Source: Verrucomicrobiaceae bacterium
GTDB lineage: Bacteria; Verrucomicrobiota; Verrucomicrobiia; Verrucomicrobiales; Verrucomicrobiaceae
Reading direction: 5' to 3'
Assembly: GCA_016795365.1 (NCBI GenBank)
Contig: JAEUHN010000001.1
Coordinates: forward strand, 124,001 to 188,000
DNA: 64,000 nt
Positions within the stretch are counted from its first letter, which is position 1, and every line of letters starts with the position of its first letter. Positions 37,112 to 50,181 of the stretch are shown here, piece after piece. A model generated the notes under the pieces. The model was given only the letters and a program-made list of their open reading frames with translations. It searched no databases and was not told where the DNA came from. A program made the translations under genes and the position numbers.

Positions 37112-37383
37112 TTTCATGGTTTCCATGCACGTCACTTGTCACAGCCATTCAGCTCATCGCGCATCATTCAGGCACGCGATGTGTTGCTGTTGAGTGACGC
37201 ACTGAGTTGAGAGCCTCTCTGCTTTCGCAGGCCGCGACGACAACGAAGCGAGCGGTCTGAGTCCCCGATCCGATCACGGAAGGACTGCTTCGCCCCCATG
37301 CCTCAGGGCCGCGCATCGCGATGACGACTGCCGCTCTCAAACCCTCACCGCGTGCCTTCGTGCCCGCACGGAAACCCCTCGTC

Positions 37384-39972
37384 ATGAAACCTGCCAACTA
37401 CCTCATTCTTCACTTTCTGCTCATCGTCTTCACCCTTCTCGCTCTTCAAATCGCCAGCGCTCAAACCAACGGCACATGGACCAATGCGACATCGACCTCC
37501 GCCTGGAGCACCACCTCGAACTGGTCGGGCGGCATCATTGCGAATGGTGCGGATGCCATCGCGGACTTCAGCACGCTCGACATTGCAGCGAACCGCACGG
37601 TGAACCTGGGCGCTAGTCGCACCATCGGATCGCTCGTCTTTGGCGACGCCGTCACTTCATCGAACACCTGGACGCTGGCCAATGGCACAGGAGGCCCATG
37701 GACGCTGACGCTGCAAACGACGAGCACCACGCCGGTCATCCAGGTAGTCAATCAAACGGCCACGATCTCCGCGCTGCTCGGTGGCACGCAGGGCTTCATC
37801 AAGACCGGTGCCGGCACGCTCACGCTGAGCAACGCAGGCAACACCTTGTCCGGCGGCATCACGCTGAACGCAGGTGCGCTGAACTTCGCCAGCGGAGCGT
37901 TGGGCGGCATTTTGATCACCATCAATGCCAGCGCCTCGCTGGGTTGGAGCGCGGGCAATACGCAGGACATTTCCTCCCAGCTCAAGATCGAAGACGGCGT
38001 GACGGCCACTCTCGCCACCGGAGCCAACAATGTCACTGCGGCTTCGACGATCCAGACCGGCACCAATGGCAATGCCTCCGTCACGAAGACTGGCGCAGGC
38101 ACGCTTACCTTCACCGCTGTGCAGAGCTACACTGGCACCACGCGCGTTAGTGGTGGTCGTGTGGTGCTGGCCGGTGGCAACGATAGGCTGGCCACCACGA
38201 GTTCGCTCACGCTCGGTCAAGCCGCTGCGAGCGGCGTGCTGCAACTCGGTGATGCCTCAGCCGCTGTGAGTCAGACCTTTGATTCGATCGCCATCGCAGG
38301 CACGGGGACGGCGAATGCGATCGTGGGTGGCAATGCGAGCAACTCGGTGCTCACGGTGAACAACAGCGCTGCGGTCGCTTATGCGGGGTTGCTTGGTGGT
38401 GCAGGGACGAACGAGAACAACCTCGCGCTGACGAAGTCCGGCGCAGGCGCACTGACGTTGAGCAACGCGGGCAACACGTTCGTCGGTGACGTGCTGATCA
38501 GCGGAGGCACGCTTGCGATCACGAAGTCCACGGCGCTTGGCAGCACGGCCAAGACGATCAGCATCACTGGCACGAGCAACGCACCAACGCTGAAGCTCGA
38601 TGGCACGTCCGGCGACCTCAGCCTGCCTGCGGCGCTGAGTTTGATCACCAGCAATGACAACACGAACAATCCGGCCATTCTTAGCAGCGTTGGGAACAAC
38701 GTCATCGCAGGCAGCATCGCGCCCACGACAGGTGGCTTCGGCGGTGGCAACACGCGCATTAAAGTCACCGCTGGATCACTGGCACTCACAGGCAACATCA
38801 GCCCTCACGCGACTGCCAGCGGACCAGTGACGCTCATCCTTGATTCCGCCGTCGGCACCACGGGCAGTGCGAGTGGCATTCTCAGCGACAATGGTGCGAC
38901 CACACTCGCCATCACCAAGGCGACTGGTGGCAATTGGTCGCTGACCGGCACAAACACTTACACGGGTGCGACCACGATCAATGCGGGCACCCTGCAAGTA
39001 ACGACCATCGCTGCGAACGGCACCGCGCAGCCCCTGGGCACTGCGTCGTCGGCCCTCTTGATTGGCACCAATACCACCATCGGCACGCTCGACTACACGG
39101 GCAGCAGCAACGCCACGCTTACACGCGGCATCACGGTGAATGGCAATGCCGGAGCGATTCTCAAGAACAGCGGCGGAGCCACGCTCACGCTCAGTGCCAC
39201 GCAGGCACGCGGTGCGCGCGGCCTCACCTACACCGGCGGTGACTTCATCGTCAGCGGTCGTATCACCGGCACCGCCAGCACGAATCCGCTGGTGATTGAT
39301 GCCGCCACCGTGCGCCTAATGCACAACAACAACAGCTACCTCAGCTCCACCGTGGTGCAGAACGGCAGCACGCTCGTCGCTTCCAACACCACCGCAACCA
39401 GCTCAGCCACTGGCACAGGCAGTGTCTCCATCGACACCAAGAGCACACTCGCTGGCACTGGCTACATCAACTCCGGCACCGACAACACGATCACCATCAA
39501 TGGCGCGCTCGTGGTCGGTGATCCCGGTGCCACGTCGGCCGCGAATCTCGATCTCACCACGTCTGGCACTGGTAGCACCATCCTTGGCTCAACGAGCATC
39601 CTTTACTTAGATGTCTTTAGCGGTGCCGGGCTAGGCGATAACTCTGCCAACGCCAGCGCGGCGGACCAACTTCGTCTCTTCGGTGCGTTAGAGATTGCCT
39701 CCGATGCCACGCTGAAACTCACGAATCCGAATCATCTCTCGAACTGGGCCGATAGTGATGTCTTCAAGCTCTTCGACTGGACAGGCCTGACCTCCAGCAC
39801 TGGCAGCTTCAACGTGGACTACTCCGACCTCAATCTGCCCAGTGGCTACAGCTTGAACACCAGCAGTCTCTACTCGCTAGGCACCGTTGCCATTGTCGTG
39901 CCTGAACCGGGGCGCGCGATGCTCACACAGATCGGAGTTCTGGCACTGCTCTTGCGAAGACGTCGTGACTGA
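37384..39972 (+). CDS. PEP-CTERM surface protein with autotransporter-type beta-strand repeats
   Basis: 862 residues from the ATG at 37384; an earlier codon at 37321 would put a basic stretch before the signal peptide (NYLILHFLLIVFTLLALQ). The body is Gly/Ala/Thr/Ser-rich with repeated autotransporter-associated strands such as GAGTLTLSNAGNTLSGGITL, GAGALTLSNAGNTFVGDVLI and NTYTGATTINAGTLQV, predicted to form a long beta-helix. The C-terminus is a PEP-CTERM sorting signal: VPEPG, a hydrophobic segment and RRRRD. It would be sorted to the envelope by an exosortase system encoded elsewhere. A role in adhesion or matrix is inferred. Confidence 0.92.
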   Translation: MKPANYLILHFLLIVFTLLALQIASAQTNGTWTNATSTSAWSTTSNWSGGIIANGADAIADFSTLDIAANRTVNLGASRTIGSLVFGDAVTSSNTWTLANGTGGPWTLTLQTTSTTPVIQVVNQTATISALLGGTQGFIKTGAGTLTLSNAGNTLSGGITLNAGALNFASGALGGILITINASASLGWSAGNTQDISSQLKIEDGVTATLATGANNVTAASTIQTGTNGNASVTKTGAGTLTFTAVQSYTGTTRVSGGRVVLAGGNDRLATTSSLTLGQAAASGVLQLGDASAAVSQTFDSIAIAGTGTANAIVGGNASNSVLTVNNSAAVAYAGLLGGAGTNENNLALTKSGAGALTLSNAGNTFVGDVLISGGTLAITKSTALGSTAKTISITGTSNAPTLKLDGTSGDLSLPAALSLITSNDNTNNPAILSSVGNNVIAGSIAPTTGGFGGGNTRIKVTAGSLALTGNISPHATASGPVTLILDSAVGTTGSASGILSDNGATTLAITKATGGNWSLTGTNTYTGATTINAGTLQVTTIAANGTAQPLGTASSALLIGTNTTIGTLDYTGSSNATLTRGITVNGNAGAILKNSGGATLTLSATQARGARGLTYTGGDFIVSGRITGTASTNPLVIDAATVRLMHNNNSYLSSTVVQNGSTLVASNTTATSSATGTGSVSIDTKSTLAGTGYINSGTDNTITINGALVVGDPGATSAANLDLTTSGTGSTILGSTSILYLDVFSGAGLGDNSANASAADQLRLFGALEIASDATLKLTNPNHLSNWADSDVFKLFDWTGLTSSTGSFNVDYSDLNLPSGYSLNTSSLYSLGTVAIVVPEPGRAMLTQIGVLALLLRRRRD

Positions 39973-41039: not shown

Positions 41040-41228
41040 CTAGTGCACGTGGGCTTCGCCAGCAGCGCTAGGCTTGTCACAGCATGAGGCTTTGGCCTTC
41101 GTCGCGCAGCAGCTCTTTTCGGGAGCAGCAGACTTGCAGCAATCCTTCTTGGCGGTGGCGGTCTCACACGAGGTGAGGACGGTAGCGGTAGCTATGGCGA
41201 CGGCGAGGGTAGTGATCAGTGTTTTCAT
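41040..41228 (-). CDS. Small cysteine-rich lipoprotein
   Basis: 62 residues from the ATG at 41228. A lipoprotein signal ends in LTSC (residue 21). The short mature part carries three CC pairs (KDCCKS, KSCCAT, ASCCDK) and ends in AHVH, a composition suited to metal binding. It lies 125 bases downstream of the ECF sigma gene on the same strand and close to copper-type genes, so an envelope metal-buffering role is a reasonable inference. No named family recognised. Confidence 0.75.
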   Translation of the reverse strand: MKTLITTLAVAIATATVLTSCETATAKKDCCKSAAPEKSCCATKAKASCCDKPSAAGEAHVH

Positions 41229-41353
41229 GAGTTCGGTAGTTTGATGTTTGAGTTTGGATTCGAAGAGCATCGGCCCTTCATCAACGCAAAACACCGCAGG
41301 CGCTATGGTCCCTTGAGCTTCGCAACCGAAGCGCGATGGCGCGCAATTCGTAG

Positions 41354-41923
41354 TCAGTGAGGCTCGCTGGCGAGTGCGGCCTTCAGCATCTGCCGTGCGC
41401 GGTAGATGCGCGTCTCGACCGCCTTCGTTGTGCAGCCGAGTGAGTTGGCAATCTCGACCTGGCTCATATCCTCGTAAGTGAATAGCAGCATGGCTTCGCG
41501 AAGATCATCGGGCAGGGCGGCGAGGGCGCGCTCCACGCGAGCAAGTTGCTCGCGATGATCGGCAGACTCGTCCGGCGATGACGAGGGCTCGCGCAGTTCG
41601 CTGACGAATGACTGTTCGTCTTCGATGGACACGGCAGGATGGCGTTTGCGCCAGCGGGCGTGGTTGCGTGCGAGGTTCGCAGCAATGCGGAACAGGTAGG
41701 TCGCAAACGGTGCCGTGGGCTGATAGCGATCGCGGCTCTGGTAGAGGCGAACGAAGGTTTCCTGCGCGAGGTCGAGAGCGGCCTCGTGGTTGCCCGTCAT
41801 GCGATAGAGAAACGCCGCGAGCCGGTCGCGCCAGCGGTGGATGAGGTCGTTCAGCGCAAGGTCATCGCCCTCGGTGAGCCGCTTCATGCACTGTGCATCG
41901 GCATCTGGAGGTGCGTCGCTCAT
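41354..41923 (-). CDS. ECF RNA polymerase sigma factor (CnrH-like position)
   Basis: 189 residues with sigma region 2 (LNDLIHRWRDRLAAFLYRMT, DLAQETFVRLYQSRDRY) and region 4 (ALPDDLREAMLLFTYEDMSQ, EIANSLGCTTKAVETRIYRA). Its ATG overlaps the stop of the sensor gene by four bases. The gene order anti-sigma, periplasmic sensor, sigma matches cnrY-cnrX-cnrH of Cupriavidus, where nickel or cobalt binding by CnrX frees CnrH. Here the divergent multicopper oxidase points to copper as the signal. Sigma identity is firm; the CnrH parallel is inferred from order and partners. Confidence 0.95.
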   Translation of the reverse strand: MSDAPPDADAQCMKRLTEGDDLALNDLIHRWRDRLAAFLYRMTGNHEAALDLAQETFVRLYQSRDRYQPTAPFATYLFRIAANLARNHARWRKRHPAVSIEDEQSFVSELREPSSSPDESADHREQLARVERALAALPDDLREAMLLFTYEDMSQVEIANSLGCTTKAVETRIYRARQMLKAALASEPH

Positions 41924-42399
41924 CGGTGCGCAACAGGGGCTTCGCAGCAGTTCACGCCGAGCGTGCTGGGGATCATGAGATCGAGGTAGCGCTTCGCTTG
42001 ATCAGGCTTGAGCAGCGCGGCAGTTTCATAGACATGCTGCAGGAGTGCGGCGCGACATTCACCCGTGAGCTTCGCGTGCGCAGTGATGGATTCGGCGAGC
42101 GCAGGATCGACCTGCAATTGCTTCCGGCTGAGGGCGAGCACGCTTTGATTTGCCTCATGCACACGCTGGCAGAGGGCTTCGCACTTGGGCAGGTAGGCGA
42201 GGTGTAGTTGCTTCACGCGAGCGAACTGCTCATCGTCGAGCGCGAGCCACGTCTTGAGCCATTGCAGCTCGGGCAGGCGGCTGGCGTGATCGGTCGGCAT
42301 GGCCGCCTCACGCGAATGCGACAGCATTGAGCGTGTGCAGACAAACATCGAAGCGCCGAGCGCGAGCGCACCGAGGAGGATGAGCAGTCCTTTCTTCAT
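41920..42399 (-). CDS. Periplasmic metal-sensor-like protein (CnrX/Metal_resist type)
   Basis: 159 residues with one N-terminal membrane segment (about 4-24) and a helical periplasmic domain. The segment WLALDDEQFARVKQLHLAYL followed by PKCEALCQRVHEAN has the Metal_resist/ZraP/CnrX look (a helical hairpin with His and Cys). A further Cys lies in TGECRAALLQHVYE and a CC pair sits near the C-terminus (GVNCCEAP). It overlaps the anti-sigma and the sigma genes by four bases each. By analogy with CnrX it would sense periplasmic metal and pass the signal to the membrane anti-sigma factor. The extra cysteines would suit Cu(I). Confidence 0.8.
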   Translation of the reverse strand: MKKGLLILLGALALGASMFVCTRSMLSHSREAAMPTDHASRLPELQWLKTWLALDDEQFARVKQLHLAYLPKCEALCQRVHEANQSVLALSRKQLQVDPALAESITAHAKLTGECRAALLQHVYETAALLKPDQAKRYLDLMIPSTLGVNCCEAPVAHR

Positions 42400-42719
42400 G
42401 GTGAGGTCGTCGTGACATGACGGAGCAAGGGGTTAACCGCTTGCTGATAGACCAGTGCTGCATCGTCCTTCGCTTCGCGTTCGTGCTGGACCCAGCCAAG
42501 ACCGAGACCGACGGAGGCAAAGAGCAGCAGCGTGGCCAAGGCAGGCGCGGGCCGCGCCAGCGAGGCGAGCAGACGTTGAATGAGTTCACCAAGCAGCGAT
42601 CCCACGGACAGCGTTTGCTCACCCTCGATGCGCGCCCACACCTCGCGCTGGAAGTCGCGTGGCACGGTGATCCGCGCTGGATGCTGGCGCAGGAGTTGAT
42701 GGAGCTCGTGGTCGTTCAT
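42396..42719 (-). CDS. Membrane-anchored anti-sigma-like protein (CnrY position)
   Basis: 107 residues. The N-terminal cytoplasmic part (MNDHELHQLLRQHPARITVP) is a short helical stretch like those of small anti-sigma factors, then one membrane segment at about 58-76 (ALATLLLFASVGLGLGWV) and a periplasmic tail of about 30 residues. Size and topology fit CnrY (about 95 residues, one membrane span). It is the first gene of the three-gene overlapping operon and diverges from the multicopper oxidase gene. No sequence motif proves anti-sigma function; the call rests on topology and gene order. Confidence 0.7.
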   Translation of the reverse strand: MNDHELHQLLRQHPARITVPRDFQREVWARIEGEQTLSVGSLLGELIQRLLASLARPAPALATLLLFASVGLGLGWVQHEREAKDDAALVYQQAVNPLLRHVTTTSP

Positions 42720-42825: not shown

Positions 42826-44826
42826 ATGAATAGATTCCCTCGCCTCGTGGTTAGCTTTGTTTTGGCGACCTCATGCGTGCGTTCTGCTGTGGTTGAATAC
42901 GATCTCACCATTGAGCAAAAGACACTCTCGCCTGCCGGTAAAACGACCAGCGTCTTCACGATCAATGGCCAGATGCCGGGACCGACGCTGCGCTTCCACG
43001 AAGGTGATTGGGCGCGCATTCGGGTTCATAACAAGCTGAGCGAAGAGACGATGATGCACTGGCACGGCCTGTTGGTTCCGAATGGTCAGGATGGAGTGCC
43101 CCACATCACCGCGCCCCCGATCGAGGCGGGCGAGACGCGCCTCTACGAGTTTCCAATCAAGCAGAGCGGCACGTATTGGTATCACTCGCATCAGGGCCTC
43201 CAGGAGCAGAAGGGAATCCTGGGAAGCATCGTGATCACGCCGCATGAGGGTGAGAGCATCAAAGCGGACCGCGATCATGTCTTGCTTCTCTCTGATTGGA
43301 CGAACGAAAGCACGAACGAAGTGCTCCGCACGCTGGTGCGCGGTAGCTCCTATTACTCGTTAAAAAAAGGCAGCCCGCAGTCCTTCCTCGGCGCGGTGAA
43401 GGCGGGCGCGACACGCGCCTGGTTCGATCGTGAGAAGAGCCGAATGCCTGCGATGGACATCTCGGACGTGGCTTACGATGCCTTCTTCATCAATGGACAA
43501 CGCGAGCAGACACTCGCAGGCAAGCCGGGCGAACGCATCCGGCTGCGGCTGATCAATGGCGGTGCGGCGAGCTATTTCTATGTCGAGTCCAGCACGGGCG
43601 AGATGACGATCACCGCGTCCGATGGACAACGCGTGGAGCCAGTGCAAGTGAAGCGCCTGCTAATGGGCAATGGCGAAACGTATGATATGCTCATCAACGT
43701 GCCGTCGAGCGGCTCGTGGGAGGTGCGTGCGACGGCGAACGATGGATCGGGTCATGCATCGGCGTGGATTGGCGAAGGCGAACGCCACGCCGCGCCTGAG
43801 GTGCCGAAGCCTGATTTGTATCGCATGGAGGCCATGCTCATGGCCGCAATTGATGATACGATGGCCGATCCCGAACGCCCGAGCGCGCCGTATGCAGAAC
43901 TGCGCGCCCCGCGTTCCACCACACTGCCCAAACATGCGAAGGTGAACACGATGGAACTCCGCCTCACCGGCGATATGCAGCGCTACATCTGGTCCTTCAA
44001 CGGCAAGACGATGGTGGAGGAATCCATGATCCCCGTGCAACGCGGGGAGGTGCTGCGGCTGGAGTTGATCAACGACACGATGATGCATCATCCGATTCAT
44101 CTGCACGGCTTCTTCTTTCGCGTGATCACCGATCAAGGCGAGCGCTCGCCGTTGAAGCACACCGTGGATGTGCCGCCGATGGGCCGACGCACGATTGAGT
44201 TTGAGGCGAATGAACTCGGAAGCTGGATGTTCCACTGCCATCTGCTCTACCACATGGCCAGCGGCATGGGTCGCATGGTGATGGTGAGCAACGGCATGCA
44301 CATGGACATGCCCGAGATGGGCGAGCATGGCAAGGTGCCGTGGCATTTGCTGCTCGATGGCAGCGTGCAGTCGCACATGACGGACGGCAATCTGATGCTG
44401 ATGCACGAGCGCGACAGCCTCAACGCACGCTGGCAGGTGGGCTTGTTCGATTCGCACGATGCACCGTATGAGATTGACCTGACCTACGATCACTACTTCA
44501 ACGCGAACCTGAGCAGCTTCGTCGGCGCGCGGCTGACTGACGATGATCACGACAAGAACCGCGCTATCGCGGGCATCACCTATCGGCTGCCGTATCTAAT
44601 TGATAGCAGCCTTGGCGTGGACAGCGAAGGCGGCATCCGTGTGGGTGTTGGCAAGACGGTCCAGCTCACCGATCGCCTGAGTGTCTTCGGCATGATCCAC
44701 TACGACACGCGCACCCGGATCGAGTGGCAGGCAGGCTTCGACTACACGCTCAGCAAGCAGTTCTCCCTCGTCGGCCAGTATCACTCCGAGTTCGGCCTCG
44801 GCGCAGGCTTTGGCTTTCACTTCTAA
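42826..44826 (+). CDS. Multicopper oxidase with C-terminal beta-barrel-like domain
   Basis: 666 residues. A signal peptide ends near residue 21. Residues 22-485 form a CopA-type multicopper oxidase with all copper ligands visible: HWHG, YWYHSHQG, HPIHLHGFF and MFHCHLLYHMASGM (HCH at 470-472). A Met/His patch (GMHMDMPEMGEH) follows. Residues 505-666 do not belong to the oxidase: they alternate like outer-membrane strands (WQVGLFDSHDAPYEIDLTYD, LSVFGMIHYDTRTRIEWQAG, FSLVGQYHSEFGLGAGFGFH) and end in phenylalanine. This could fuse CopA-like oxidase to a CopB-like barrel and tether it at the outer membrane. Likely role: periplasmic Cu(I) oxidation, induced by the divergent CnrYXH-like system. Confidence 0.9.
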   Translation: MNRFPRLVVSFVLATSCVRSAVVEYDLTIEQKTLSPAGKTTSVFTINGQMPGPTLRFHEGDWARIRVHNKLSEETMMHWHGLLVPNGQDGVPHITAPPIEAGETRLYEFPIKQSGTYWYHSHQGLQEQKGILGSIVITPHEGESIKADRDHVLLLSDWTNESTNEVLRTLVRGSSYYSLKKGSPQSFLGAVKAGATRAWFDREKSRMPAMDISDVAYDAFFINGQREQTLAGKPGERIRLRLINGGAASYFYVESSTGEMTITASDGQRVEPVQVKRLLMGNGETYDMLINVPSSGSWEVRATANDGSGHASAWIGEGERHAAPEVPKPDLYRMEAMLMAAIDDTMADPERPSAPYAELRAPRSTTLPKHAKVNTMELRLTGDMQRYIWSFNGKTMVEESMIPVQRGEVLRLELINDTMMHHPIHLHGFFFRVITDQGERSPLKHTVDVPPMGRRTIEFEANELGSWMFHCHLLYHMASGMGRMVMVSNGMHMDMPEMGEHGKVPWHLLLDGSVQSHMTDGNLMLMHERDSLNARWQVGLFDSHDAPYEIDLTYDHYFNANLSSFVGARLTDDDHDKNRAIAGITYRLPYLIDSSLGVDSEGGIRVGVGKTVQLTDRLSVFGMIHYDTRTRIEWQAGFDYTLSKQFSLVGQYHSEFGLGAGFGFHF

Positions 44827-44845: not shown

Positions 44846-45106
44846 ATGAAAACACGACACATCCTCAGCGTCCTCGTCGCGCCCCTTGCGATCACCCTCA
44901 CCTCCTGCGCCACCAGCGGCGGCAGCACCAGCGGAGTGAAACCGTATCCGCTCAAGACCTGCATCGTCACCGGCAACGAACTCGGCTCGATGGGCGATCC
45001 CATCACCGAGGTCTATCAAGGCCAGCAGATGAAGTTCTGCTGCAAGCCCTGCGTCGCCAAGTTCCACAAGGACCCGGCGAAGTATCTGGCGAAGCTCGGT
45101 GGCTAG
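44846..45106 (+). CDS. TRASH/YHS-like metal-binding lipoprotein
   Basis: 86 residues from the ATG at 44846. A lipoprotein signal ends in LTSC. The mature part is a small YHS/TRASH-type domain, with TCIVTGNELGSMGDP and FCCKPCVAKFHKDPAKYL, where the paired cysteines would bind Cu or another soft metal. It starts 19 bases after the oxidase gene and is probably co-expressed, acting as a periplasmic metal carrier or buffer. Confidence 0.85.
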   Translation: MKTRHILSVLVAPLAITLTSCATSGGSTSGVKPYPLKTCIVTGNELGSMGDPITEVYQGQQMKFCCKPCVAKFHKDPAKYLAKLGG

Positions 45107-45316: not shown

Positions 45317-45910
45317 ATGAACAAGTCTCTGCTCGCCCTGATCGCTGCTGCATCGCTGGGCACCATCGTGCCGCAGTATGTCGCGCTGGGCTTCACGCAT
45401 ATTTTGCCGGGCGGGCTGGATCACATCCTGTTCATCCTTGGCCTGTTCCTTCTGGCACGCGATGCGTTCACGCTGCTGGTGCAGATCACGCTCTTCACCC
45501 TCGCGCATTCGCTGACGCTAGGACTGTCGTTAGTGGGCTGGGTATCGCTGCCGACGCAGTGGGTGGAAGTCGTCATCGCGCTAAGCATCGCCTTCATCGC
45601 GATCGAGAACCTGTTCTGCGACCGGCTCAGCAAGTGGCGTCCGTGGATGGTGTTTGGCTTTGGGTTGATCCACGGCCTTGGTTTCGCGCACACGTTTCAG
45701 GAGACGTCGGTGGACGCGGCTTCGCTGGTTCCCGCGCTGTTCAGCTTCAATGTTGGCATCGAAGTCGGACAACTGGCTGTGGTCAGTCTCGCCTTTCTCG
45801 TCGTCGCTGCATGGTGGCGTCGCGAGGACTATGCGAAGCTCATCGCACGCCCAGCGTCGGCAGTGATCGCGCTCGTCGGATTGTATTGGGCCATCGAACG
45901 GAGTCTTTGA
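45317..45910 (+). CDS. HupE/UreJ family membrane protein
   Basis: 197 residues with about six membrane segments. The family signature is present: GFTHILPGGLDHILFILGLF near residue 25 (His and Asp-His likely metal ligands), later LFTLAHSLTLGLS and FGFGLIHGLGFAHTF. HupE/UreJ proteins are nickel or cobalt permeases or chaperones; in many genomes they sit beside TonB-dependent receptors. Here the receptor gene lies downstream at 46564, so the whole block looks like envelope metal uptake. The metal could be Ni, Co or Cu. Confidence 0.9.
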   Translation: MNKSLLALIAAASLGTIVPQYVALGFTHILPGGLDHILFILGLFLLARDAFTLLVQITLFTLAHSLTLGLSLVGWVSLPTQWVEVVIALSIAFIAIENLFCDRLSKWRPWMVFGFGLIHGLGFAHTFQETSVDAASLVPALFSFNVGIEVGQLAVVSLAFLVVAAWWRREDYAKLIARPASAVIALVGLYWAIERSL

Positions 45911-45967
45911 CGGTTCGTTGGCAATTCGCTGATTGCACGGCGCGGATTCAGCGTTCACTATCGCGCC

Positions 45968-46360
45968 GTGACTTCCCCGCGCATCAGCATTCGCACTCTC
46001 TACCTGCTGGCCTTGTTCCAGTTGGTGGCGGGGCCGTTGGTGTTGGGATTGGTGTTTGCGTTCGCAAAGGTCGCCGTGCGTGAGGCTCCGCAGCAGGGCC
46101 TGGCCAAAGCGGCGCAGAAGGCGTGGCATAGTCCCGAGGTGCGGACAGCGCTTCAGGCGGTGACGCGGGAGTCACAAGACAGCTCAAAATCCTCGCTTCC
46201 CAAAGCGGCGAAGGGCAAGCTGAAGATCATCAGCGTGACATGGATACTGGAGACCTTTGCGGTGGCGGAACCGGCGCAAAGCAAAGTCAGTTCGACCCTC
46301 CAAGCCTGGACTCCCGCGTGGCCACAGGCTCCGCCGGGCACGCCGCCACGAGCAGCGTAA
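45968..46360 (+). CDS. Hypothetical protein with N-terminal membrane segment
   Basis: 130 residues starting at GTG 45968. One hydrophobic segment (TLYLLALFQLVAGPLVLGLV) is followed by a basic, Ala-rich region and a Pro/Trp-rich tail (LQAWTPAWPQAPPGTPP). I do not recognise the family. It lies 57 bases after the HupE-like gene and before the receptor gene, so it may be an accessory of metal uptake. The 3' end runs into a repeat-rich intergenic stretch, so the C-terminal tail could be partly repeat-derived. Confidence 0.55.
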   Translation: MTSPRISIRTLYLLALFQLVAGPLVLGLVFAFAKVAVREAPQQGLAKAAQKAWHSPEVRTALQAVTRESQDSSKSSLPKAAKGKLKIISVTWILETFAVAEPAQSKVSSTLQAWTPAWPQAPPGTPPRAA

Positions 46361-46380
46361 GTGCGACGCACCGTGGACTG

Positions 46381-46525
46381 CGGCAGCCTGCTGCCGCTTT
46401 CTTGAAGCCAGCCCTGCTGGCGTGAACGTCTGTGATGCTTCGCCAGGAACCGAGGTCACCGCTTCCCGTGGAATGATGTGCGGCATGATCTCGTGACCCA
46501 TCCGTCTGCACGCCAGCAAGCTGGC
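46381..46525. repeat. Cluster of short palindromes in intergenic DNA
   Basis: Three short hairpins lie in the 203 bases before the receptor gene: CGGCAG/CTGCCG (46381-46396), GCCAGC/GCTGGC around CCT (46407-46421) and GCCAGC/GCTGGC around AA (46512-46525). The words match dispersed palindromic elements typical of verrucomicrobial intergenic regions. No coding potential seen. Confidence 0.5.
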
Positions 46526-46563
46526 TCGTCAAAGCGCTCCGCGCCTGCACTTCATCACGTCCC

Positions 46564-48696
46564 ATGAAACCCATCTCTTTTTACACTGCTCTGCTTCTTA
46601 CTCTCCCTGCCTTCGCGCAGGACGCCCCTCCAACCGAACCCACCACCACGGCGGAAGTCGTCGTCACAGGCAAAGCCGAGGACCTTGTCGGTGTCGCACC
46701 GGCGGCGTCCAAAGGCCAGGCCAGCGCTGAGGAAATCGCTGACCGTCCTTACCTGCGTCGCAGCGAGATCCTCGAAACCGTCCCTGGCGTGATCACCACG
46801 CAGCACGCAGGCGGCGGCAAGGCGACGCAGTATTTCCTGCGTGGCTTCAACCTCGACCACGGCACCGACTTCGCGACGAGCATCGACTTCATGCCGATGA
46901 ATCTCAAGACGCACGCCCACGGCCAGGGCTACACCGATCTCAATCCGCTGATCCCCGAACTCATCGAGCGCGTGGATTATGTGAAGGGCACTTACACCGC
47001 TGCGAACGGTGACCTCAGCACCGCAGGCAGCGCGAACTTCAAGCTCTGGGATGTGCTGCCGCACAATCTCCTCAGCGCGGAGGTCGGCGAGCATGGTTAC
47101 TATCGCGGGCTGATCGCGGGTTCGATTGATCTCAATGGCCCGATCCCCGCGACCGCTCCGAGCGGCAAGAATCCAGGCAAGAACCCGGTGACGCCTGCCA
47201 CCCAAGAAACCAACGCGCTGACTTACGCGCTCGAATACAACACGTATGAAGGTCCCTTCGCGCTGAGCGAGGACTTCGAGCGCTGGAACGGCACGCTGCG
47301 TTACTTCAAAGGCGATGCGGACAACCACTTCGCCGCCACCTTCATGGGCTACCATGCGACGTGGACCTCCAGCGATCAGATTCCGCAGCGCGCAATCAAC
47401 AGCGGGCTCATCCCTCGGCTTGGCAATCTCGATCCCACCAACGGCGGTAACTCGCAGCGCTACTCGCTCAATCTCGAATGGGCCGAGCGCGAAGGCGATG
47501 TGGTCACGAAGGCGAACCTCTTCGGCATCTACTACGACCTCGATCTGTTCAGCAACTTCACCTACTTCCTCGATTACCCGGATCGCAGCGACCAGTTCGA
47601 GCAGGCGGAGAAACGCTGGATCATCGGCGGCAACATCGCACGCACTTGGGAGAAGCGCAGTGTGTTCGGTCACGAAGCAGAGTTCACGCTCGGCTTGCAG
47701 ACGCGCCACGATTTGATCGATGGCATCGGCTTGTGGCGGACGAAGCAGCGCGAGCGCTTCAAGAACATCCGCCAGGACGATGTGTATGAAGCCAGTGTCG
47801 GCGTGTATGCGGACAGCACGGTGCATTGGAACGACTGGTTCCGCACCAACGTCGGGGTGCGCGGCGATGTGTTCTACTTCGACACGCAGAGCAACAATGT
47901 CCTCAACAGCGGCGACGACTTCGCCGGCATCGTGAGCCCGAAGATCAGCGCCGTCTTTGGCCCGTGGCATGACACCGAGTTTTATCTGAACTACGGCACC
48001 GGCTTCCACAGCAACGACGCCCGCGGCACCAGCACCATCATTGATCCCAACAGCGGCGAGCGCATCGCCACCGTTGATCCGCTCGTCCGCACGCAGGGTG
48101 CGGAGTTCGGCATCCGCAGCAGCGCCATCCCGCATCTCACCAGCACGCTCACCTTCTTCTGGCTGCAATCCGACAGCGAACTCGTCTATGTCGGTGACGA
48201 AGGCAAAAACGAAGCCGGTCCCGGCAGCGAACGCTACGGCATCGAGTGGTCCAACTACTGGCGTCCGACTGATTGGTTCAGCATGGATGCCGAGGTCGCT
48301 CTGACGCATGGTCGTCTCACTGATTCAGGCAATGCGGACTACATCCCCAACAGCGTGCCCGTCATGTTCAGCGGCGGCATCAACCTCGGCGCTCAAGGCG
48401 GAGCCGATGGCTTCTTCGCCAACCTCCGCGCCCGCGCTTTCAATCGTCGTCCGCTCATCGAAGACAACAGCGTGAAAGGCAAGAACAGCTTCCTGGTCAA
48501 CGCAGGCATTGGCTACCGGAAGAAGAACTGGGAGGCCGCCGTCGAGTGCCTCAATCTCTTCAACCGCGCGGACAACGACATCGAATACTACTACACGAGT
48601 CGTCTTCCCGGAGAAGACGCCGCCGGGGCGGATGACATCCATCTGCATCCCACCGAGCCGCGCATGTTCCGCTTTCGCGTGACTTACAAGTTCTGA
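46564..48696 (+). CDS. TonB-dependent outer-membrane receptor
   Basis: 710 residues. A signal peptide ends near AFAQD. The plug domain covers about 35-160 with ILETVPGVITTQHAGGGKAT and QYFLRGFNLDHGTDF, ending at the YTAANGDLSTAGSANF segment. The barrel follows and ends with aromatic FRFRVTYKF. Substrate is not obvious from sequence; flanking HupE/UreJ proteins and the adjacent TonB-ExbB-ExbD genes suggest a metal or metal complex (Ni, Co or Cu). No TonB-box-like sequence was assigned with confidence. Confidence 0.94.
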   Translation: MKPISFYTALLLTLPAFAQDAPPTEPTTTAEVVVTGKAEDLVGVAPAASKGQASAEEIADRPYLRRSEILETVPGVITTQHAGGGKATQYFLRGFNLDHGTDFATSIDFMPMNLKTHAHGQGYTDLNPLIPELIERVDYVKGTYTAANGDLSTAGSANFKLWDVLPHNLLSAEVGEHGYYRGLIAGSIDLNGPIPATAPSGKNPGKNPVTPATQETNALTYALEYNTYEGPFALSEDFERWNGTLRYFKGDADNHFAATFMGYHATWTSSDQIPQRAINSGLIPRLGNLDPTNGGNSQRYSLNLEWAEREGDVVTKANLFGIYYDLDLFSNFTYFLDYPDRSDQFEQAEKRWIIGGNIARTWEKRSVFGHEAEFTLGLQTRHDLIDGIGLWRTKQRERFKNIRQDDVYEASVGVYADSTVHWNDWFRTNVGVRGDVFYFDTQSNNVLNSGDDFAGIVSPKISAVFGPWHDTEFYLNYGTGFHSNDARGTSTIIDPNSGERIATVDPLVRTQGAEFGIRSSAIPHLTSTLTFFWLQSDSELVYVGDEGKNEAGPGSERYGIEWSNYWRPTDWFSMDAEVALTHGRLTDSGNADYIPNSVPVMFSGGINLGAQGGADGFFANLRARAFNRRPLIEDNSVKGKNSFLVNAGIGYRKKNWEAAVECLNLFNRADNDIEYYYTSRLPGEDAAGADDIHLHPTEPRMFRFRVTYKF

Positions 48697-48704
48697 TTCA
48701 TTCG

Positions 48705-48761
48705 CCACCAAGGGCACAGAGAACGCAAAGATCTCTTTGTGTTCCTCTGTGATCCTTGTGG
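48705..48761. repeat. Imperfect inverted repeat of the CCACNAAGG type
   Basis: The left arm begins CCACCAAGGGCACAGAGAAC and the right arm, reversed, begins CCACAAGGATCACAGAGGAA. The roughly 28-base arms meet at the centre (AAAGATCTCTTT). This is a widely dispersed intergenic palindrome class in many GC-rich bacteria. It directly follows the receptor stop and could end its transcript. Confidence 0.65.
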
Positions 48762-48842
48762 CTCAAGAACTTGTGGCTGGCGGGTCGCCCGCGACTCACA
48801 GCGCGTTCATTCAGGCCCGCTTTCTGCGCATTGATCAAGCCT

Positions 48843-49451
48843 ATGAAATCATCCTTCGCTTCTGATTCCCATCTGGTTCGTGCACTTCTGCTTGTGATGC
48901 TCGGACTGCCTTCTCTCGCTCATGCTCACATCGGCGTCGGTCATGCCAGCGGCCTCCTCCACGGAATGGCGCATCCGGTGTCTGGCCTGGACCATCTCTG
49001 CGCCATGGTCGCTGTGGGACTGTGGGCGGCTCAATGCGGCGGGCGCACTCTCTGGCTGGTGCCACTGGCGTTTGTGTCAGTGATGACCGTGGGCGGAATG
49101 CTTGGCGCAGCGGGCATGCCGCTGCCGTTGGTGGAGCAGGGTATTGCAGCCTCGCTGCTGGTGCTGGGGTTGCTCATGGCGGCGGCAGTGCGTCTGCCGC
49201 TGGCTGCCAGTGTTGGCCTCGTCGGCCTGTTCGCTTTGTTTCACGGTCACGCCCATGGAACGGAGATGCCCGACACGGCATCGGGACTGGCTTACGGGCT
49301 TGGCTTTGTGATTGTCACCATCAGTCTCCATCTCCTGGGCATGGGCGCGGGAGTGCTGGTTCAGAAGTGGGGCAGCGCCCGGCTCCTTCGTTTCGCAGGT
49401 GGAGCTGTGACAGTTTGCGGCGTCTATCTATGCCTTCAGTTCCTGACGTGA
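48843..49451 (+). CDS. HupE/UreJ family protein, second copy
   Basis: 202 residues from the ATG at 48843. A signal peptide (LLLVMLGLPSLAHA) is followed by a mature N-terminus with HIGVGHASGLLHGMAHPVSG then LDHLCAMVAVGLWA, the classical HupE/UreJ His-rich pattern, and FALFHGHAHGTEMP further on; about six membrane segments. This is the classical branch, whereas the gene at 45317 is the second branch of the family. The stop is one base before the TonB start codon, so it belongs to the TonB-ExbB-ExbD transcript. Confidence 0.92.
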   Translation: MKSSFASDSHLVRALLLVMLGLPSLAHAHIGVGHASGLLHGMAHPVSGLDHLCAMVAVGLWAAQCGGRTLWLVPLAFVSVMTVGGMLGAAGMPLPLVEQGIAASLLVLGLLMAAAVRLPLAASVGLVGLFALFHGHAHGTEMPDTASGLAYGLGFVIVTISLHLLGMGAGVLVQKWGSARLLRFAGGAVTVCGVYLCLQFLT

Positions 49452-49452
49452 C

Positions 49453-50181
49453 GTGATCACCGCCCCCAAGACCAGCAATGCCTACCTGCTCTCCACCTGG
49501 AGCGCAGGCGTTGCGTTGCTGTGTCTTGGCATCGGGCTGCATGGCGCAGGCGCACCACTGCTGCCAGCGAGTGATGAGTCGATTCAAAAGCCCGTCAGCG
49601 ATGACACGGTGATGGTGGAGACCTTCCAGCCGCCTGCCGCTGCCGCAGCGCCAGAAGAGTCACCACCTGAGCCGGAGACGAAGGAAGAAGACATCGAGAT
49701 TCCGCCTTTGCCAGACATCACTCCACCGCTCACGCCGCCGGAGATGGTCGAGATCACGCCGCTGGAAGAAGCACCGCCACCTCCACCACCGATGCCGATG
49801 CCCAAACCGGTGGAAAAGAAACCCGAGCCTCCGAAGCCAGCACCAACGCCGAAGCCCGCACCGCGCCCAGCGACAAAGCCCGACACCACGGGTGGCAACA
49901 GCAGCGGCAGTTCACCCGTGCCCTTCAATCGCGCAGGAAGCGCCGGGCGTTTCCCTGATCCGACTTATCCCGCCTCGGCTCGCGCCGCGAAGCAACAAGG
50001 CACCGTGCGGCTGCTCGTCACCGTGGAGGCGAGCGGCATTCCCAGCGCTGTCGAAGTCACCACCTCCAGTGGCAGCGGCGCACTCGATAGCGCTGCACGC
50101 GACACTATCTCGCGACGCTGGCGCTGGCCTGCGGGTGCCGTGCGCAAGTTCATCATCCCTGTTCGATTCGTTCTCCAATGA
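49453..50181 (+). CDS. tonB: TonB energy-transducing protein
   Basis: 242 residues from a GTG one base after the HupE stop. There is one N-terminal membrane anchor (LSTWSAGVALLCLGIGLHGA), then a Pro/Glu then Pro/Lys-rich periplasm-spanning region (about 55-145), and the C-terminal TonB domain with DPTYPASARAAKQQGTVRLL and DSAARDTISRRWRWPAG. It transmits proton-motive force to the nearby receptor. The gene overlaps exbB by four bases. Confidence 0.94.
   Translation: MITAPKTSNAYLLSTWSAGVALLCLGIGLHGAGAPLLPASDESIQKPVSDDTVMVETFQPPAAAAAPEESPPEPETKEEDIEIPPLPDITPPLTPPEMVEITPLEEAPPPPPPMPMPKPVEKKPEPPKPAPTPKPAPRPATKPDTTGGNSSGSSPVPFNRAGSAGRFPDPTYPASARAAKQQGTVRLLVTVEASGIPSAVEVTTSSGSGALDSAARDTISRRWRWPAGAVRKFIIPVRFVLQ

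Follow-up and report, generated by a model that had tools for sequence, protein, structure and literature searches.

The gene at positions 42826-44826 of the forward strand in the window, by which we mean the whole analysed stretch of 64,000 nucleotides from a Verrucomicrobiaceae bacterium, most probably encodes a copper-tolerance pair of the PcoA-PcoB (CopA-CopB) kind joined in a single chain. We put the probability of this reading at roughly 80%, with the location and the function of the protein deduced from its predicted fold, its conservation and its gene context. The open reading frame is uninterrupted and specifies 666 amino acids, in which Pfam domains and structural modelling place a multicopper oxidase (MCO), a short linker and a predicted C-terminal barrel of the outer-membrane type within one chain. 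The oxidase and the barrel share a single open reading frame in the homologues as well, as would be found in a fused PcoA-PcoB. An assembly or frameshift artefact can be dismissed as the source of the fusion, since it is kept in 78 complete homologues of several phyla. Oxidase-barrel fusions as such are already known (Legionella, Bizionia), and the window protein is a further case.

In regard to the N-terminal part, the chain starts with a probable Sec-type signal peptide, MNRFPRLVVSFVLATSCVRSA, that holds no twin-arginine motif (residues 1-21, 42826..42888, + strand), as read from the sequence and from a comparison of the N-termini of fused and separate homologues. The three-domain multicopper oxidase that follows (residues 22-489, 42889..44292, + strand) was recognised by Pfam, TIGR01480 and the positions of its motifs. 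Pfam domains Cu-oxidase_3 (29-140), Cu-oxidase (150-306) and Cu-oxidase_2 (377-489) all score far above their cut-offs and, as the last of them ends at residue 489, the oxidase is complete by about this position; the first-pass annotation correctly described a finished domain, yet placed its end at residue 485, a few residues off. The set of type 1, 2 and 3 copper-ligand motifs characteristic of multicopper oxidases (HWHG, YWYHSH, HxxHLHG, HCHxxxHxxxxM) is complete and intact, being located at residues 78-81 (HWHG), 117-122 (YWYHSH), 421-428 (HHPIHLHG) and 470-481 (type 1, HCHLLYHMASGM), and the alignment of 62 homologues shows no variation in the motif columns. The CopA/PcoA model TIGR01480 is the best NCBIfam model for this oxidase, but at 412.5 bits the match falls short of the curated threshold of 478.95 bits, so that formal CopA/PcoA membership is not assigned and a different substrate is possible. 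The nearest characterised relatives of the oxidase are nevertheless CopA/PcoA, which form the sister branch in the tree.

The short linker between the two domains (residues 490-506, 44293..44343, + strand), defined by a comparison of linkers within the family, comprises 17 residues including the stretch MHMDMPEMGEH, while its length across the family ranges from 16 to 68 residues. The mean content of methionine and histidine is 13.5% in the linkers vs 8.9% in the oxidases, and it is higher in the linker in 58 out of 79 fused proteins. PcoB, on the other hand, possesses a long disordered His/Met-rich N-terminal region, to which the Met/His-enriched linkers of the window protein and of its relatives can be compared.

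The remaining part of the protein (residues 507-666, 44344..44823, + strand), which ends with GLGAGFGFHF, is predicted to form a 12-stranded CopB/PcoB-like outer-membrane beta-barrel, according to the AlphaFold2 model, the PDB match and the match to CopB at the family level. The model of the tail alone, built with an alignment of 62 homologues, shows 12 strands over residues 507-665 with a mean pLDDT of 91.9, while the full chain was modelled with a pLDDT of 93.9 and a pTM of 0.92, compatible with a fixed arrangement of the oxidase and the barrel. Of the 12 strands, 11 have two faces that differ clearly in hydrophobicity, the difference being negligible in strand 2. Proteins assembled by BAM usually end in an aromatic residue, as does every one of the 78 fused homologues used (61 F, 11 Y and 6 W). 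Top structural matches of the tail in the PDB are outer-membrane barrels; in the Foldseek search PcoB (7pge) ranks first, with an E-value of 1.1e-6 followed by 1.1e-4 for the next match, and it is also ranked at the top by VIA-align (Z 16.7, rmsd 3.2 over 161 residues, 16% identity). Such a structure agrees with the 12-stranded fold of PcoB, and the earlier proposal that the last 160 residues build a small beta-barrel ending in Phe holds for the model and for the terminal residue alike. A smaller barrel of 8 strands, guessed from the length of the tail, was rejected because the model has 12. However, other 12-strand barrels score close to PcoB in VIA-align (VhGalP with Z 15.2, which is 1.5 lower, and OMPLA with 14.9), and the fold by itself is therefore no proof of kinship to CopB.

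Evidence for this kinship comes from the family of tails and not from direct matches of single proteins. The tail of the window protein gave no match to Pfam CopB (PF05275) at E<=1, whereas 30 of 62 family tails match this model with a best E-value of 1.4e-9, compared to about 3.4e-4 for the best other family. When the tail family was aligned by hhalign with 13 CopB/PcoB proteins, a colinear match over 119 columns was obtained (E 2e-10, probability 97%), vs E 0.01 and a probability of 4% in the reversed control; a smaller set of 8 CopB proteins gave E 1.4e-9. Bacteroidota tails alone had no significant hhalign match to the CopB profile, and their profile matches that of Verrucomicrobiota tails with E 5e-26. 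In six genomes the tail profile found only the fused proteins, with nothing else above about 11 bits, while ten CopB proteins score 14-33 bits. General barrel composition is thus an unlikely cause of the link to CopB. E. coli-type PcoB did not match the tail profile directly, and a search of PDB sequences with this profile recovered no natural protein, PcoB included, its sole match being a designed 12-strand barrel. Since these direct matches to E. coli-type PcoB are missing, we describe the tail as a diverged CopB-like barrel whose homology to CopB/PcoB is supported at the level of the family. Together with the 12-strand model and PcoB as the top PDB match, the family profile bears out the original suggestion of a CopB-like barrel attached to a CopA-like oxidase.

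At least 78 full-length fused homologues were found in Verrucomicrobiota, Planctomycetota, Lentisphaerota and Bacteroidota, and the Bacteroidota genera with a full-length fusion in the scan of species genomes were Chryseobacterium, Elizabethkingia and Mucilaginibacter. Some match was given by 64 of 96 relatives, in many cases at full length, and the tail profile matches 32 of 387 genomes of the phylum. No clear stand-alone tail was present among these 387 genomes, as full-length matches lie in frames of 674 or more amino acids, apart from one of 489 amino acids with a stop, and the rest are fragments. Stand-alone CopB genes were found in only 3 of 68 genomes of the family to which the window belongs, all of them fragmented assemblies and possibly contamination, and they are absent from the present genome. 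The statement that CopA and CopB are normally separate proteins is true of Pseudomonadota, while in the present clade the fusion is the norm, and it had also been reported earlier. Plasmid-borne fused forms occur in Hymenobacter, Spirosoma, Ornithobacterium, Flavobacterium and the fusobacterium Ilyobacter, where they are annotated simply as "multicopper oxidase". In one genus of the order, represented by many small genomes, there is also a more diverged second fused group of about 774-801 amino acids, with an oxidase identity of 45-47%, which is missing from some species of that genus.

In a quick tree of 77 oxidase sequences the fused proteins occupy one side of one branch (SH-aLRT 99), and in a careful tree of 56 sequences with PcoA/CopA outgroups the fused branch obtained a bootstrap of 91 and an SH-aLRT of 85. 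It is placed beside the CopA/PcoA proteins of Pseudomonadota, whose CopB is a separate gene and follows the oxidase as the next gene. These topologies favour a single origin of the fusion within a sample that was collected by similarity to the window protein. Regarding export, Tat signals are present in 10 of the 12 separate Pseudomonadota oxidases examined, while the fused proteins, including that of the window, mostly carry Sec-like signals, a loose RR pattern being matched by no more than 6 of 79. A strict rule by which the fusion equals the loss of Tat is weakened by these 6 proteins and by the Sec-like signals on two separate oxidases, from Porticoccus and Acinetobacter. The latter two suggest that the switch between the Tat and Sec pathways may be older than the fusion.

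A gene begins 19 bases downstream of the fused gene for a small YHS-type protein, probably a lipoprotein with an LTSC lipobox (44846..45106, + strand; Pfam YHS E 3e-6, just under the cut-off). Of the 76 loci that extend far enough to judge, 58 have a homologue adjacent to the fused gene in the same orientation; most PVC loci encode it directly downstream, and the ten Bacteroidota loci all lack it there. Residues C39, C65, C66 and C69 are 100% conserved among 66 aligned sequences, 32 of which hold a lipobox-like motif, and the protein is likely a copper-binding partner. Divergently from the fused gene lies a cassette of three genes on the - strand: a small protein that has a single hydrophobic segment of membrane type (42396..42719), which by this segment and by its position, that of CnrY, is a probable anti-sigma factor although it has no significant match in Pfam; a Metal_resist-like periplasmic sensor of the CnrX type (41920..42399; Pfam Metal_resist E 6e-5, below the cut-off); and, as the last gene, an ECF sigma factor and probable regulator (41354..41923; Pfam Sigma70_r2/r4_2). 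The order of anti-sigma factor, Metal_resist sensor and ECF sigma factor resembles the gene order of CnrYXH, a metal-sensing sigma-factor system, and the window sensor differs in carrying conserved cysteines. In the alignment, the sensor shows a conserved C...C, a further Cys and a His, and its cysteines may point to a sensor variant for thiophilic metals, Cu(I) for example. Homologues of the cassette occur near the fused gene in 10 (anti-sigma factor), 12 (sensor) and 13 (ECF sigma factor) of 78 loci, often divergent likewise, and in the present species the operon is probably under the control of these Cnr-like genes. Several fused homologues have genes for P-type copper ATPases or DUF3347 proteins beside them, and the present genome encodes elsewhere a Cu-type P-ATPase and CusA/CzcA-type pumps.

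Several other genes surround this region. Adjoining the sigma cassette, a small Cys-rich protein with a lipobox-like LTSC, KKDCCKSAAPEKSCCATKAKASCCDK, is encoded at 41040-41294 (- strand); it could be a metal sponge, and no homologue of it was found at other fused loci. Just downstream of the copper genes, 45317-50181 (+ strand) holds two HupE/UreJ-like membrane proteins, the second recognised by eye, a TonB-dependent receptor and a TonB-like protein, and none of these HupE/UreJ-like and TonB genes were found beside other fused oxidases. A large autotransporter-like repeat protein with a PEP-CTERM-like tail, VVPEPGRAMLTQIGVLALLLRRRRD, lies just upstream of the copper region (37321-39972, + strand).

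With PcoA and PcoB (CopA and CopB) of Pseudomonadota, which can be plasmid-borne or chromosomal, the window protein shares the neighbourhood of the oxidase family, the order of oxidase and barrel, the 12-strand fold and a Met/His-containing stretch ahead of the barrel. It differs from them in its single chain, where they have two adjacent genes, in its highly diverged barrel of about 160 residues, in its Sec-type signal, and in its YHS-type neighbour in place of PcoC/PcoD. Fused PcoA-PcoB proteins were reported in 2012 in five Legionella species (PMC3548706); judged by that description, they represent likewise fused forms in another phylum. In 2024, the multicopper oxidase G2EDV6 of Bizionia argentinensis was noted to carry a C-terminal "porin-like region" (residues 611-809) that resembles PcoB to some extent (PMC11213822), in one genome and without a structure or a survey. 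As far as the description allows comparison, G2EDV6 also consists of an oxidase followed by a PcoB-like tail, and it very probably belongs to the Bacteroidota branch of the fused family. No description of the Verrucomicrobiota/PVC fused family, its extent or its YHS partner was found in the literature searched, which lay mostly outside subscription journals.

If the single-chain reading is correct, the fused chain would be exported by Sec, the route to be expected if it has to arrive at BAM in an unfolded state, and BAM would insert its C-terminal barrel into the outer membrane. PcoB is a 12-strand barrel with an electronegative funnel and both termini at the periplasmic end (PMC9210255), and an oxidase attached at the N-terminal side would therefore lie in the periplasm. 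Beneath the barrel, on the inner side of the outer membrane as the first-pass annotation had proposed, it would turn toxic Cu(I), which the YHS-type protein may deliver or buffer, into Cu(II), and the acid-rich lumen could let Cu(II) cross the membrane beside the site of its production. Lumen-facing positions in the family hold on average 10.8 acidic vs 6.6 basic residues per protein, and the inward charged residues E549, D551, R569, R579, R587, D599, R605 and D627 are conserved at 93-100% (the acids E549, D551, D599 and D627 at 93-98%), which places them among the most conserved positions. A more specific proposal, which we consider tentative, is that a one-chain copper machine of the outer membrane is widespread in PVC bacteria and Bacteroidota, in which the YHS-type protein hands over Cu(I), the tethered oxidase oxidises it, and the minimal 12-strand pore covalently attached to it channels Cu(II) directly out.

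It is also possible, though less likely than not, that the barrel is a mere anchor that keeps the oxidase at the outer membrane and carries no copper. Most direct sequence similarity to CopB has been lost from the tail, its loops are short and the long disordered N-terminal region of PcoB is replaced by 17 residues; the overall confidence of the full-length model (pTM 0.92) would suit an anchored oxidase as well. Conservation of inward charged residues would, however, be needless for a plain anchor, although the role of some may be limited to stabilising the barrel. Less probable is a scenario in which the oxidase acts on phenolics, iron or manganese instead of Cu(I) and the barrel serves as its port. 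Multicopper oxidases have broad substrate ranges and the CopA model score stays below the curated cut-off (412 of 479 bits), but the nearest characterised relatives are CopA/PcoA, the barrel is CopB-like, and the Cys-rich YHS neighbour, the metal-sensor cassette and the copper P-type ATPase or DUF3347 genes found by several homologues all speak for copper. Finally, the tail could be a soluble beta-sandwich or a beta-rich lid and no membrane barrel. Nothing was found in favour of such a tail, even though 160 residues are short for a 12-strand outer-membrane protein, and the barrel model, its 12 strands with a hydrophobic and a polar face in most of them, the aromatic C-terminus in 78 of 78 homologues and the outer-membrane barrels among the top PDB matches make it very improbable; the structure prediction proposed as a check by the first-pass annotation returned a barrel, and the AlphaFold2 model and the fold search together rule the beta-sandwich out.

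The cooperation of PcoA and PcoB and the direction in which PcoB moves copper are unsettled in the literature, with uptake argued from work on E. coli (PMC9210255) and efflux from work on Caulobacter (PMC12509749). In Caulobacter, PcoA is stabilised by the disordered N-terminal region of PcoB and docking of the two proteins has been proposed (PMC12509749), so a natural fusion fits such a partnership. As the fused proteins are annotated only as "multicopper oxidase" in the records examined, their predicted outer-membrane half and likely location have been overlooked across Verrucomicrobiota and Bacteroidota. A natural fusion of the two proteins sets their stoichiometry and relative geometry, lends support to the view that PcoA and PcoB are direct physical partners, and provides one purifiable polypeptide in which the coupling of oxidase and barrel can be studied. 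If the one-chain machine outlined above is true, these bacteria would possess an oxidation-coupled export device that needs neither ATP nor a proton gradient.
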